A stretch of 64,000 bases of DNA from Ekhidna lutea (GTDB taxonomy: Bacteria; Bacteroidota; Bacteroidia; Cytophagales; Cyclobacteriaceae). The position numbers and the translations under genes are program-made. The stretch spans positions 186,001 through 250,000 of the forward strand of contig NZ_FZPD01000002.1 in NCBI RefSeq assembly GCF_900188325.1, in the 5' to 3' direction. The notes beneath the pieces were generated by a model. The model was not told the origin of the DNA. It made no database searches and saw nothing but the letters and a program-made list of their open reading frames with translations. Below are positions 37,336-42,132 of this stretch, one piece after another (positions within the stretch are counted from its first letter, which is position 1; each line of letters opens with the position of its first letter).

Positions 37336-39741
37336 ATGCGAACACCCCTCATCATTTTCTTCTTATTATCCTTCTTTGCCATTCAAGCCCAAAGTGTCTC
37401 AATCACTTTTGAGGTTAATATGTCCTACCAAATACAGCAGGCGAATTTTGACCCTGAAAATGAATTTGTAGACATAGCTGGAACCTTCAATGAATGGGGT
37501 TCAACACTGAATAAACTGAATGATTCTGACGGTGATAGTATTTGGTCAGTTACTATTCAAGGATTTAGCAACGGACAAAACATAGAGTTTAAGTTTAGAT
37601 ACAATGGACAATGGGATGATCGGGAAGAATTTCCGGGAGCAGGCAATAACCGAACCCACATTGTCGGCTCAAGCGACGAAACACTTTCATTCTGGTATAA
37701 CGATGAAGAACCTGCAACAGGTCCGGCGGTAGCTAATATCGGGTCATCATCTTCATTTACTTATGTAGGTGGATCCATCCTCTTTTCAGATGAATCAAAA
37801 GGTCAGATAGACGATGTAGAATGGGTTTTTGAGGGAGGTACACCCAACACCTCTGTGGAAAGTAATGTTTCTGTAACCTATGACACTCCAGGCACTTATG
37901 ATGTCACACTTAGAGTATCCAATAGCTTTTCAGAAGATGAGAAAATCTTACAAGACTTTATTAAAGTAGAAGAGCAATCCACTGAAGATTTGGCTTGGTG
38001 GAACGAAACCACCTTCTATGAAATATTTGTTAGAAGTTTCTATGATAGTGATGGTGATGGAATAGGAGATTTTAACGGAATAACCGAAAAACTGGATTAT
38101 CTAAATGATGGCGATCCTACAACTTCAACTGACTTAGGGGTAGAAGGTATTTGGTTAATGCCAATTCATGATTCTCCAAGTTATCACGGATACGATGTAA
38201 ACGATTACCGATCCATTAATCCGGATTACGGTTCAATTGATGACTTCAAAAACTTCCTGGATGAAGCACATAAAAGAGGAATTAAAGTCATTATTGATTT
38301 AGTATTGAATCACTCATCCACAGAAACAGACTGGTTTAAGGAATCTCAATCTTCACCAAGTTCTGCTAAAAGAAACTGGTATCGCTGGTCTGACTCAAAA
38401 CCCTCATATTCAGGGCCGTGGGGTCAGAATGTTTGGCATGGCAGTAGCAGTCCCTATTACTATGGATTGTTTTGGGGTGGTATGCCCGACCTGAATTATG
38501 AAGAACCTGCATTAAAGGAAGAGATGTTTGATATTACAAGATTTTGGCTGGAAGAAATTGGAATCGATGGTTATCGACTTGATGCAGTTAAATATATCTA
38601 TGAAGATGGCAATCAGTTGGAAGACTTACCTGAAACGCATGCCTTTTGGAGAGAATGGGTTGCAATAACCAAACAATCCAATCCGGATGCCTTGTCTGTA
38701 GGAGAGGCATGGACAAGCACAGAAAAAGTAGTGCCTTATGTCGTAAATGATGGGTTAGATTTTTGTTTTGAATTTGATCTAAGTTCAGCGATGTTGAACA
38801 GTGTAAAAACCGGAGATGCTTACCATGTAAGCAATCAAATAAACAAAGTCATCAACAGCTATCCTTATTATCAATTTGCATCATTTGCCACTAATCACGA
38901 TCAAAACAGAATCATGGATGAGTTGTCTTCTGATGAAGATAAGGTCAAGCTAATTGCAGCAACATACCTTACCTTACCGGGAGTGCCTTTTGTTTATTAC
39001 GGTGAGGAGGTTGGAATGCTGGGAAGCAAGCCAGATGAAAATATCCGACGACCTATGTCCTGGAGCAATGCTTCTCATGCTGGTTTTTCAGAGAGCTCTC
39101 CATGGAATGCACCTTCTGATAACTATTCGACACATAATGTAGAAGTAGCAAAGCAGGATGGAAGCTCATTATTTAATTGGTACCGACGGTTAATTAATTT
39201 GAGGAACAATGAAGTGGCATTACAAAAAGGAGTGTACCGTGAAATTGTTACAAAAAATGCTTCAGTTTTGGCCTTCTGGAGGGAGTTTGAAGATGATCAA
39301 TTATTGATAATGATTAACTATGGTGATACTCAAGCTACAGAAACGATTTCAACATCAGAATTAAATCCTATGGACGAAAATCAAGCAATGGTTGACTATT
39401 TAGATGCATCAACACGGATAGATGTGTCGAACATTTCAAGCTTTGATCTTAAACTTTCGGCCAATCAGGTACGAATTCTTCAACCTGGATCTCTCACTTT
39501 AAGCACGAAAGTGAGAGACAATCTAACTGTATTTCCAAATCCAACCTCTAATCAGTTGTATTTAGAAAACATTCAGGTGCCTTTTTACTATCAATTGATG
39601 GACATCAAGGGAAGGGTTATTAGAAGTGAATCAAACCAAACCAACCGGTTAATTGATGTCTCTGATCTTGCTACTGGTACGTATCTTCTCAAGCTAATTG
39701 ACAGAGATAGTAAAAGCACAGTCAAGGTTCAAATAAATTGA
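37336..39741 (+). CDS. Secreted alpha-amylase (GH13) with starch-binding, PKD and T9SS domains
   Basis: 801 aa multidomain enzyme. Signal peptide, an N-terminal CBM-like beta domain (about 20-125, FVDIAGTFNEWGSTLNKL), a PKD-type domain (about 130-215), GH13 catalytic barrel (about 220-640) with nucleophile D416 in GYRLDAVKY, acid/base E457 in VGEAW, and D522 in TNHDQ. A C-terminal type IX secretion sorting domain (about 725-801, VFPNPTSNQLYL ... GTYLLKL) marks export to the surface. It probably degrades starch or glycogen outside the cell. It is 70 bp downstream of the thioredoxin pair but functionally separate. A TAnnTTTG box (37324-37331) ends 4 nt before the ATG. Confidence 0.92.
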   Translation: MRTPLIIFFLLSFFAIQAQSVSITFEVNMSYQIQQANFDPENEFVDIAGTFNEWGSTLNKLNDSDGDSIWSVTIQGFSNGQNIEFKFRYNGQWDDREEFPGAGNNRTHIVGSSDETLSFWYNDEEPATGPAVANIGSSSSFTYVGGSILFSDESKGQIDDVEWVFEGGTPNTSVESNVSVTYDTPGTYDVTLRVSNSFSEDEKILQDFIKVEEQSTEDLAWWNETTFYEIFVRSFYDSDGDGIGDFNGITEKLDYLNDGDPTTSTDLGVEGIWLMPIHDSPSYHGYDVNDYRSINPDYGSIDDFKNFLDEAHKRGIKVIIDLVLNHSSTETDWFKESQSSPSSAKRNWYRWSDSKPSYSGPWGQNVWHGSSSPYYYGLFWGGMPDLNYEEPALKEEMFDITRFWLEEIGIDGYRLDAVKYIYEDGNQLEDLPETHAFWREWVAITKQSNPDALSVGEAWTSTEKVVPYVVNDGLDFCFEFDLSSAMLNSVKTGDAYHVSNQINKVINSYPYYQFASFATNHDQNRIMDELSSDEDKVKLIAATYLTLPGVPFVYYGEEVGMLGSKPDENIRRPMSWSNASHAGFSESSPWNAPSDNYSTHNVEVAKQDGSSLFNWYRRLINLRNNEVALQKGVYREIVTKNASVLAFWREFEDDQLLIMINYGDTQATETISTSELNPMDENQAMVDYLDASTRIDVSNISSFDLKLSANQVRILQPGSLTLSTKVRDNLTVFPNPTSNQLYLENIQVPFYYQLMDIKGRVIRSESNQTNRLIDVSDLATGTYLLKLIDRDSKSTVKVQIN

Positions 39742-39870
39742 TTTGACGATCAGCCGACACTGACTTCAAGTTTTCCTTGTAAATCCACAAGCATACAATC
39801 TTTCGTATGATAATTAAACTAGTTTAGCTGGCGAGAATATTTAGCTCTCACGACATTACAAATAATTCCT

Positions 39871-40842
39871 ATGGAAGCATATTTAGATACCACAAAAGAC
39901 ATTTATAAGAGAGCAGCAGAAACCCCAGATGTAGGGCTTTGCTGTACTACTACACCAATCTGGGCTTTCCCCGGACTTGATATCCCAAAGATCATGCAGC
40001 AGATGAATTACGGCTGTGGTAGTACGGTACACCCAAGAGACTTGATCAACGATCCAAAGATTTTATATGTTGGCGTAGGCGGAGGAATGGAACTGTTGCA
40101 GTTTTCGTACTTCAGCAGACAAAAAGAAGGTGTAGTAGGAGTAGACGTAGTAGATGAAATGCTTGAAGCATGTGAAAGGAATTTCAAGGAGGCAGAACAA
40201 ACGAATGATTGGTTCCAATCGGATTTTGTCAGCTTGAGAAAAGGTGATGCACTTAACCTGCCAGTAGAGGATTCATCCATTGATGTAGCTGCCCAGAATT
40301 GTCTCTTCAACATCTTTCATGAAGAGGACTTAAAGAAAGCACTTAAGGAAATGTACAGGGTTCTGAAACCACATGGCAGATTGGTATTATCTGACCCGAT
40401 CAGTGAGGATGTCATGCCTGAAAACCTTAAAAATGATCCTGAATTGAGGGGACTATGCCTAAGTGGCGCCCTTCCACTCAAGCAATACATTGACATGATT
40501 ACTGAGGTTGGATTTGGAACAGTTGAAATAAGAGCCAAACGTCCTTATCGCATTCTCGATTCTAAACATTATGATACAGATCAGCCGATTCATATTGAAA
40601 GTGTAGAAGTATGCGCGATAAAAGATCCAATGCCGGAAGATGGTCCTTGTGTTTTCACAGGCCGTACAGCTATCTACACAGGAGACAAAGAATACTTTGA
40701 TGATCACGCAGGGCATGTATTGATGTACAATCAACCATTATCTGTGTGCGATAAGACAGCCGGGAATTTGCAAGCAACAGGTAGTGAAGACATCTATGTT
40801 AGCGAGAGCACCTTCTTTTACGATGGGGGAGGTTGTTGTTAA
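39871..40842 (+). CDS. arsM: Arsenite methyltransferase ArsM (arsenosugar type)
   Basis: 323 aa SAM-dependent methyltransferase. SAM loop ILYVGVGGGMELL (about 64-76) and the arsenite-binding cysteines C24/C25 (GLCCTT), C49 (NYGCGS), C144 (AQNCLFN) and C196 (GLCLSGAL) are conserved. The C-terminus ends in YDGGGCC, typical of the Bacteroidota/cyanobacterial ArsM linked to arsenosugar synthesis. It methylates As(III), typically as a glutathione or other thiol complex. The radical-SAM partner ArsS is absent; instead an MBOAT gene starts 18 bp downstream, so the two are probably one operon. Confidence 0.88.
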   Translation: MEAYLDTTKDIYKRAAETPDVGLCCTTTPIWAFPGLDIPKIMQQMNYGCGSTVHPRDLINDPKILYVGVGGGMELLQFSYFSRQKEGVVGVDVVDEMLEACERNFKEAEQTNDWFQSDFVSLRKGDALNLPVEDSSIDVAAQNCLFNIFHEEDLKKALKEMYRVLKPHGRLVLSDPISEDVMPENLKNDPELRGLCLSGALPLKQYIDMITEVGFGTVEIRAKRPYRILDSKHYDTDQPIHIESVEVCAIKDPMPEDGPCVFTGRTAIYTGDKEYFDDHAGHVLMYNQPLSVCDKTAGNLQATGSEDIYVSESTFFYDGGGCC

Positions 40843-40860
40843 TTAAATAGTAACCACTAA

Positions 40861-41988
40861 ATGCAAGTACTTCTAATTTATGTTCTAATTGGGGCAATAA
40901 CAGTTGGTATTTATTGGGCAGTAAAGGAAGAACTTCAACCATTTGTCGTCATAGCTGGAAGTGTTGTTTTCTTTTCATTACATGATGTATTTTCCCTACT
41001 AATACTTGCAACAACGAGTATCATTACATTTTACCTGTTAAGACGAGGATCAGGAAGGAATTTCTATTTCAGCTTAAGTTTCATTCTTCTTAGCTTCCTG
41101 TTTATCATTTTCAAGGTTGGCGTAACAATTGAAGAAGGCTCCTTCAGTGCATCTCTTCCGCTTGGGATGTCTTTCTATCTTTTTCGGTTACTTCATTATG
41201 CCATTGAATCATTCAAGGGGAATTTGCGAAATACAGACCTGAAGTCATTCATGACCTTCATGTTTTTTCTTCCGGTAATGATTATTGGCCCAATCATCAG
41301 ACTTGGAGACTGGTCCAAAGAAATGAAACGAAGGAGATGGAATCCCGAGCTGTTTTCCAATGGAATGGAACGGATTCTGTTTGGGTTTTTAAAAATTACC
41401 TTCCTTGGAAACTTCTTAGTAAATGCAAAACTTTCCACTTTCATTCGATCTTTTGAAGATGAGCAATCCTGGATTGTAAACTATTTAGAGTGCTTTCAAT
41501 ACACAGCAAATTCATATCTGCAGTTTGCAGGTTATTCAGATATTGCAGTTGGTCTATCAATGCTTTTTGGTATCCGTATTATGGAAAACTTCCGTTTCCC
41601 TTTTCTGGCTACTGATATTAATGATTTTTGGAAAAGGTGGCATATATCCCTTTCTAATTGGTGTAGAGATTATATTTTTATGCCCGTCGCTTCGTTTTCA
41701 AGGCTTACATGGCTTGCCATTATTGCATCTATGCTTGTGCTTGGACTTTGGCATGAATTATCAGTGCGATACATTCTCTGGGGATCGTTTCATGGGGTAG
41801 GAATTGTAATTTGGAACTTGCAGGATAAGTATTTTGGCAGAAAACTATCTGATGGAGCAATGAAGATTTATTCAATATTTGGAAGAATAATCACACTTCA
41901 TTTCGTCATTTTTAGCTTTGCCTTTGTGAAGGAAGAATCAGTCAGCGAATCTTTTAGAATTTTATTGATACTTGTTGGACTTGACTAA
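40861..41988 (+). CDS. MBOAT-family O-acyltransferase (DltB/AlgI-like)
   Basis: 375 aa polytopic membrane protein. Conserved MBOAT residues are seen in FWKRWHISLSNWCRDYIF (H261) and GLWHEL (H298, the catalytic His position). Length is closer to DltB (about 400) than AlgI (about 470-500). It would transfer an acyl group across the inner membrane. The gene lies 18 bp after arsM and its stop abuts the start of a 47-codon gene whose product resembles DltX. Substrate unknown; an arsenolipid or envelope modification linked to ArsM is only inference. Confidence 0.85.
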   Translation: MQVLLIYVLIGAITVGIYWAVKEELQPFVVIAGSVVFFSLHDVFSLLILATTSIITFYLLRRGSGRNFYFSLSFILLSFLFIIFKVGVTIEEGSFSASLPLGMSFYLFRLLHYAIESFKGNLRNTDLKSFMTFMFFLPVMIIGPIIRLGDWSKEMKRRRWNPELFSNGMERILFGFLKITFLGNFLVNAKLSTFIRSFEDEQSWIVNYLECFQYTANSYLQFAGYSDIAVGLSMLFGIRIMENFRFPFLATDINDFWKRWHISLSNWCRDYIFMPVASFSRLTWLAIIASMLVLGLWHELSVRYILWGSFHGVGIVIWNLQDKYFGRKLSDGAMKIYSIFGRIITLHFVIFSFAFVKEESVSESFRILLILVGLD

Positions 41989-42132
41989 ATGACTATTTAC
42001 ACGTTTTTCACACGCTTCTTTAACAAAAAGATTGCCGGTTTTCTGACGGCAATCACATACCTGATTATGTTGCTTATCATCTGGTATTTTATAGGTGTTG
42101 AAGAAGGTGATTTCAGGTATTTGAATTATTAA
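41989..42132 (+). CDS. 47-aa membrane micropeptide, DltX-like
   Basis: ATG follows the MBOAT stop directly (TAAATG). The product has a basic N-terminus (FFNKKIAG), one transmembrane helix (LTAITYLIMLLIIWYFIG) and a short acidic tail ending FRYLNY. DltX, the obligate micropeptide partner of DltB, has the same size, topology and an FxYxxF-type end, and its terminal Tyr is thought to carry the acyl group. The match in position, topology and terminal motif supports a real gene despite its size. It was missed by ordinary length cut-offs. Confidence 0.7.
   Translation: MTIYTFFTRFFNKKIAGFLTAITYLIMLLIIWYFIGVEEGDFRYLNY

Follow-up and report, generated by a model that had tools for sequence, protein, structure and literature searches.

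The window analysed here is a stretch of 64,000 nucleotides from Ekhidna lutea (positions 186,001 to 250,000 of contig NZ_FZPD01000002.1, called C6 below). Within it, arsM, a gene for an arsenosugar-type arsenite methyltransferase, is followed on the plus strand by a gene for a DltB-like MBOAT protein and by an open reading frame (ORF) for a 47-residue micropeptide. We propose that the MBOAT gene and the micropeptide gene are the fourth and fifth genes of an envelope-acylation operon (methyltransferase-ligase, ligase-carrier, SGNH-like protein, MBOAT, micropeptide) which was split by an inversion, that its products would act through an acyl-tyrosine shuttle, and that arsenic is not involved. 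Both the inversion and the mechanism are inferred from comparison with relatives and with described systems, and we consider this joint account likely.

Gene order in relatives and the proposed inversion

A search of 59 genomes (E. lutea and its relatives) returned three other MBOAT proteins of matching size (48%, 41% and 39% identity), from two congeners (G003 and G005) and from Cytophaga aurantiaca (G051), a member of the same order. In each of these genomes the MBOAT gene is the fourth of five. The first gene encodes a protein of 932-962 residues that weakly matches methyltransferases and has an adenosine monophosphate (AMP) ligase domain, the second an AMP ligase of 613-617 residues with a C-terminal carrier domain, the third an SGNH-like protein of 294-308 residues, and the fifth a peptide of 45-46 residues ending in FRYLDY, FNYMGW or FNYIYY. 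Genes 1-3 were also found in E. lutea, where they occupy the minus strand at C6:285686-291230, adjoin mnmA and encode proteins of 950, 614 and 284 residues. The SGNH-like protein of G003, used as a query, matched this genome at a single place (C6:285692-286540). The first-pass annotation had stated that dltA, dltC, dltD and arsS are all missing; this is correct for the neighbourhood and not for the genome, which holds the ligase-carrier and SGNH-like genes at the above position and arsS at C6:734201-735238.

Further loci of the same close clade were obtained from metagenome-assembled genomes (five of Bacteroidota, one of Planctomycetota) and from genome G059, some of them clipped by contig or locus ends. 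An SGNH-like gene accompanies the MBOAT gene in nine of the ten other clade loci (recognized by eye in L042, L045, L046 and L121); in E. lutea it lies 58 kb away. It was not found in L041, whose contig starts 1.3 kb before the MBOAT gene, and in L045 the order differs in that the SGNH-like gene is 3' of the peptide gene. Two side observations concern these proteins. The 950-residue product of gene 1 in E. lutea (L037:12379-15231, minus strand) carries, as judged by eye, an N-terminal zinc-binding-like stretch with CPNC and CNHC. In L041 (positions 1-1450) the first bases of the contig nearly recur where the MBOAT ORF begins, and the N-terminus of that MBOAT protein is probably an assembly artefact.

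The other side of the rearrangement is visible at arsM. ArsM was detected in five of the ten genomes of the genus, E. lutea included, and in all four other arsM-bearing congeners arsM is followed by mnmA. The mnmA copies of these four are 85-94% identical to that of E. lutea, and the identity of mnmA was confirmed by profile for three proteins (those of E. lutea, G005 and G006). In E. lutea, mnmA lies near 285.6 kb of C6, directly behind the SGNH-like gene and 58.7 kb from arsM. The distance between the two junctions is 58,733 bp, and flipping this segment in silico places arsM before mnmA and the SGNH-like gene before the MBOAT gene, restoring the arrangements of both sets of relatives. Apart from about ten bases at its start, the 92-bp spacer between the SGNH-like gene and mnmA of E. 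lutea can be aligned with the spacer that separates arsM from mnmA in G005. Both E. lutea spacers contain CCACTAA and likewise TAATTAA, and their longest common strings are 7 bp; such a match in AT-rich spacers agrees with an inversion, though it is weak by itself. If the two spacers hold the breakpoints of one inversion of some 58.7 kb, this event would have cut the operon in two, with genes 1-3 ending up before mnmA and genes 4-5 after arsM. As a separate observation, five genomes (L152-L155 and L037) share a strongly conserved stretch before mnmA. One reading of it is an ORF of six codons, (start)-[C/Y]-K-P-W-L-stop, which is possibly a leader peptide.

The arsM-MBOAT junction could also have arisen during assembly and be absent from the living strain. 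It is known from one assembly only and is unique among the loci examined. Comparison of the roughly 600-bp flanks of both breakpoints revealed no exact match of at least 11 bp, direct or inverted, whereas misjoins usually depend on longer repeats; this makes a repeat-driven misassembly less likely. We consider an assembly error improbable and continue with the inversion.

An inversion also bears on the proposal, made in the first-pass annotation, that the MBOAT protein might act on an arsenic-containing lipid or glycan. The ArsM of the window falls clearly within the arsenosugar-type family (NCBIfam NF038099, AsSugarArsM; 562.3 bits against a cut-off of 400), and its assignment with the YDGGGCC end was borne out. 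The genome also encodes ArsS (TIGR04167; 444.6 bits against a cut-off of 300), 507 kb from arsM. Two genes known for arsenosugar synthesis, arsM and arsS, are thus present without any MBOAT. Across the order, ArsM was found at E <= 1e-60 in 32 of 241 genomes, and loci were retrieved for 30 of these with flanks of about 0.9-1.5 kb per side. An MBOAT gene stands beside arsM in one of the 30, the window itself, and in none of the 29 others; an arsS-like ORF was seen by eye immediately 5' of arsM in many of them, as it is in G005. None of the four arsM-bearing congeners has an MBOAT gene beside arsM, and the other clade MBOAT loci gave no ArsM match within the stretches examined. Acylation of an arsenic lipid by this MBOAT protein was rejected on this synteny. 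A single functional operon of arsM, MBOAT and peptide genes for such a substrate is very improbable, despite the 18-bp same-strand spacing, which suggests co-transcription today, and an arsS gene with which an arsenosugar could be made; one inversion suffices to account for the junction, and the relatives lack the linkage. Judged from gene order, the arsenic link most likely arose by chance when the genome was rearranged.

A weaker tie to arsM is compatible with a split operon. The MBOAT and peptide genes may now be expressed from the arsM promoter and thereby fall under arsM control, so that arsenic would be uninvolved except that genes 4-5 may be transcribed together with arsM. The short spacer agrees with this, no TAnnTTTG site (the Bacteroidota-type promoter motif) lies between arsM and the MBOAT start, and both proteins retain their conserved residues. 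Against it, the scan found no TAnnTTTG site upstream of arsM either (39601-39870) and so identified no arsM promoter, and a terminator-like stem reaches into the end of arsM, although such stems also occur near chance (three found, 1.9 expected). Another promoter scan gave matches at chance level (nine found, 9.3 expected). We regard this regulatory capture as somewhat unlikely.

The MBOAT protein and its micropeptide

The layout described in the first-pass annotation proved correct on recheck, both in its coordinates and in its spacing (18 bp from arsM to MBOAT, with no gene between them, and 0 bp from MBOAT to peptide), as did its description of a DltB-sized MBOAT protein followed by a single-helix peptide with the end FRYLNY. 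The features are collected in Table 1; on the contig, the MBOAT gene starts at C6:226861.

Table 1. Features of the arsM-MBOAT-micropeptide region, in window positions.
Feature	Position	Strand	Remarks
arsM, arsenosugar-type arsenite methyltransferase	39871..40842	+	323 aa, end YDGGGCC; NF038099
Spacer, 18 bp	40843..40860		Inferred left inversion breakpoint; partner junction C6:285594-285685, outside the window
MBOAT, DltB-like, proposed transmembrane acyltransferase loading the micropeptide	40861..41988	+	375 aa; PF03062
H298 codon, proposed catalytic histidine (GLWH)	41752..41754	+	W297 and H298 invariant in 40/40 rows
Micropeptide, single helix, proposed acyl shuttle (DltX-like mode)	41989..42132	+	47 aa, end FRYLNY
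Y44 codon, proposed acyl-accepting tyrosine of the F-x-Y motif	42118..42120	+	F42 and Y44 invariant in 11/11 peptides

The MBOAT protein belongs to the MBOAT superfamily (PF03062; 73.7 bits against a cut-off of 27). Its sole NCBIfam match is DltB (TIGR04091) at 176 bits, far under the cut-off of 375, and it is not a DltB equivalog by this measure. DltB is nevertheless its best solved relative, both by sequence (phmmer E 2.7e-28) and by fold: the predicted model superimposes on DltB 8jem over 362 residues with a root mean square deviation of 3.3 A (VIA-align Z 34.5; Foldseek E 3.3e-14), with human PORCN as the next-best fold match (Z 33.0). W297 and H298 do not vary in the alignment of 40 rows. 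The protein ends in RILLILVGLD and has no shuttle motif of its own.

A lack of conservation beside MBOAT genes had been named beforehand as grounds for rejecting the MBOAT-micropeptide proposal. In fact, a micropeptide gene lies directly behind the MBOAT gene in all 11 distinct clade loci, with a product of 45-49 residues and a start between -19 and +13 bp relative to the MBOAT stop. The only invariant residues in the 11 aligned peptides are Y4, F42 and Y44. At the last position Y, W, L or I is found, so that by analogy the invariant Y44 (FRY44LNY), and not the terminal tyrosine named in the first-pass annotation, is the candidate shuttle residue. The 47-codon ORF might be untranslated and the MBOAT protein might work alone, and the peptide indeed matches no Pfam or NCBIfam family above cut-off and no PDB sequence. 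We find this hardly credible, as the length, the position and the F-x-Y end are kept in 11/11 loci whose MBOAT proteins fall to 33% identity with that of the window. MBOAT and micropeptide are genuine genes.

The pair was modelled with AlphaFold as one chain, the stop codon being read as glycine, from alignments without and with peptide rows. The mean predicted local distance difference test score (pLDDT) of the whole chain was 87.4 without and 85.3 with these rows, and the MBOAT part was confident in both. Without peptide rows the peptide scored mostly below 60; with them it formed a short helix and a long helix (389-410) at a block pLDDT of about 75-87. A mobile tail behind this helix would suit a shuttle, although a low pLDDT is not evidence for mobility.

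In the nine aligned clade ligases, H-x-D-G stands where two DltA proteins have FDLSVM, so that the motif of D-alanine-type ligases is missing from all nine, and the carrier site GW[DN]S[LMF] is present in all of them (GWNSL in E. lutea). The E. lutea ligase matched acyl-CoA-ligase types among the 25 of 108 NCBIfam matches listed. The SGNH-like proteins share conserved S61, D258 and H261 (alignment numbering); they are labelled SGNH by analogy, some of the others by eye. By analogy with the Dlt and PatAB systems, the ligase would adenylate a carboxylic acid and then load its own carrier domain. The MBOAT protein would pass the acyl group through the membrane, with H298 helping to place it on Y44 of the micropeptide, and the flexible peptide tail would hand it to the serine of the SGNH-like protein, which would esterify an envelope acceptor. 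MBOAT and micropeptide thus probably work as an acyl-tyrosine shuttle pair together with the ligase-carrier and SGNH-like proteins. The first-pass idea that MBOAT and micropeptide form a pair separate from the D-alanyl-teichoic-acid pathway gains support from this conserved company, while acyl transfer itself would follow by analogy.

Several observations weigh against the account of a split acylation operon. In gene order alone, a real inversion and a misassembly would look the same. The distribution of the system is sparse and scattered, with gene 1 in three of ten genomes of the genus and a close MBOAT protein (E <= 1e-55) in three of 395 genomes of the phylum sample, E. lutea included in both counts. 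The peptide tail with FRYLNY (413-423) stayed below 50 pLDDT and was left unplaced in both models. The carrier domain of the E. lutea ligase scored 15.4 against PF00550, under the cut-off of 20.8, which the matches in L046 (24.1) and G005 (25.7) exceed. Three SGNH-like proteins had no Pfam family match and two, that of E. lutea included, had no NCBIfam match; a PDB profile search with four of them gave five matches, the best at E 0.2 and not credible.

Free peptides and fused motifs in other MBOAT loci

A wider survey covered 117 MBOAT genes, after five duplicate loci and ORFs of less than 300 residues had been dropped. Ninety-seven encode a C-terminal FxYxxF-type motif of their own and 20 do not. 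The rule for an own motif accepted F-x-Y-x-x-F-like and looser ends, and the peptide pattern was set after the loci had been viewed. An adjacent DltX-like ORF was present at 16 of the 20 MBOAT genes without a motif and at none of the 97 with one (Fisher p 2.4e-16, a value overstated since the rows are related). The 16 comprise the 11 clade loci, in which the peptide gene is downstream, and five others in which it is upstream, from Rhodobacteraceae, Phycisphaerales, Caulobacteraceae, Thioploca and Anaerolineales. The four motif-less genes without a matching peptide are the second copy of L048, L055 (whose ORF reaches the contig end), L119 (with a masked stretch) and L091, in which a peptide is present and ends in NVYVDVRGQ.

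Ligase-carrier, SGNH-like and MBOAT genes together with a peptide of variant end were also found on a Sulfitobacter plasmid and in a Novosphingobium metagenome-assembled genome. A plasmid search returned 136 records with relatives of the MBOAT protein, all below 60% identity; the three regions inspected were one Sulfitobacter ligase-SGNH-MBOAT-peptide set (L181) and two dlt operons. The L181 set lies on a plasmid of Sulfitobacter pontiacus with an IS110 transposase gene about 2.4 kb behind the MBOAT gene, a setting that suggests horizontal movement.

In a midpoint-rooted tree of 49 hand-picked MBOAT rows, a branch with 100/100 support set off the 13 clade rows (the 11 and the two alphaproteobacterial ones from Sulfitobacter and Novosphingobium). 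The 27 fused MBOAT rows in this tree were grouped with the same support, and the clade stood apart from them and from two DltB rows; a long-branch warning applies to DltB with L116 and L119.

Free-peptide and fused-motif loci also differ in their neighbours. An AMP ligase is encoded near 11 of 12 free-peptide loci and near three of 52 fused-type loci, in a non-random sample with a minimum length of 9 kb for free-peptide loci and 12 kb for fused-type loci, from which L049 (short), L119 and L055 are omitted. The free-peptide locus without a ligase is L041, at a contig end. The three fused loci with one (L076, L080 and L102) are all from Exiguobacterium, and their MBOAT proteins, which end in FIYGGF or FVYGGF, are encoded directly behind a 468-residue relative of AMP ligases. 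In L047, L048 and L054 the MBOAT gene and an upstream micropeptide gene stand beside an AMP ligase gene, with a decarboxylase-like ORF seen by eye in L048 and L054 as well; small separate carriers were confirmed with PF00550 near L047, L054 and L119. We regard L047, L048 and L054 as a second family of free-shuttle systems. The survey suggests a rule in which a carrier-bound donor goes with a free peptide and a coenzyme A (CoA) donor with a fused motif, carriers having been sought in the free-peptide loci only; the three Exiguobacterium loci speak against such a rule. Whether these systems form a third MBOAT lineage, apart from Dlt and from the fused AlgI/PatA type and marked in Gram-negative phyla by a free Tyr-tailed micropeptide and a carrier donor under a general donor-peptide rule, is a proposition to which we give an even chance.

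Comparison with known acyl-transfer systems

According to passages of a 2025 paper (PMC12148441), the acyl group is transferred to the tyrosine of an FxYxxF motif, on DltX in the Dlt system and on the MBOAT protein itself in PatA, for which the acyl-tyrosine intermediate was shown; the same passages describe other MBOAT/SGNH pathways as lacking a DltX-like microprotein. The present loci look like exceptions to that absence. The system described here looks like a little-described cousin of Gram-positive Dlt. Both combine a DltB-like MBOAT protein without its own motif, a separate single-helix microprotein ending in F-x-Y and an AMP ligase; the putative carrier domain and the SGNH-like protein would correspond to the phosphopantetheine carrier and the SGNH-type partner of Dlt. 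Unlike in Dlt, the ligase is fused to its carrier and lacks the D-alanine-type motif, a methyltransferase-ligase is added, the peptide is missed by the DltX Pfam model, and the hosts are Bacteroidota and other Gram-negative bacteria. The micropeptide gene stands behind the MBOAT gene here, whereas it heads the dlt operon in Niallia.

These likenesses raise the question of whether the peptide is a diverged true DltX and the whole system a diverged D-alanylation pathway. Its size, topology and F-x-Y end are those of DltX, the MBOAT fold is DltB-like, and ligase, carrier, MBOAT and SGNH-like protein run parallel to DltA, DltC, DltB and DltD. However, PF12459 (DltX) matched none of the 11 clade peptides at E up to 10, and a scan of the E. 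lutea genome gave no match at the peptide, while control DltX proteins of Bacillus subtilis and Lactococcus lactis scored above cut-off. An hhalign comparison of the peptide profile with one Niallia DltX (L180), which owes its name to its NYIYNDF end and to its place as first gene of a dlt-like operon rather than to a model, gave a probability of 0.6%, both sequences being too short for a strong test. Further DltX rows were sought in 38 genomes from the order of one Exiguobacterium genome, and none was found. Assignment to DltX by profile was thus tried with Pfam and hhalign and yielded nothing. The ligase motif and the separation of the MBOAT protein from the two DltB rows in the tree likewise argue against a diverged Dlt system, which we consider quite improbable.

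The PatAB/AlgI-type pairs resemble the proposed shuttle operon in combining an MBOAT protein, an SGNH protein (SGNH-like in the operon) and an F-x-Y shuttle motif. They differ in that their MBOAT proteins carry the motif at the C-terminus and that the donor of PatA is acetyl-CoA, while a separate peptide and a putative carrier domain are found here. Closer in architecture are the loci of Thioploca, Rhodobacteraceae, Phycisphaerales and Anaerolineales, with a motif-less MBOAT protein, an adjacent peptide (FRYQVF, FRYQNF, FQYEGF and WIYQGF) and an AMP ligase nearby; their peptide gene is 5' of the MBOAT gene and their other partner genes differ. Arsenosugar biosynthesis has both ArsM and ArsS in this genome and is tied to the acylation genes only through the inversion junction.

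A tidy operon with an 18-bp spacer can be the scar of an inversion, and it is advisable to look at gene order in related genomes before the role of a gene is deduced from the one beside it. If the proposed account is true, DltX-like shuttle peptides are not peculiar to Gram-positive D-alanylation and recur beside MBOAT genes in Bacteroidota, Planctomycetota, Pseudomonadota and Chloroflexota, where they are easily overlooked because their genes are only about 45 codons long. The loci collected here would then offer a test set for membrane acyl transfer and for a possible rule linking peptide architecture to the acyl donor.

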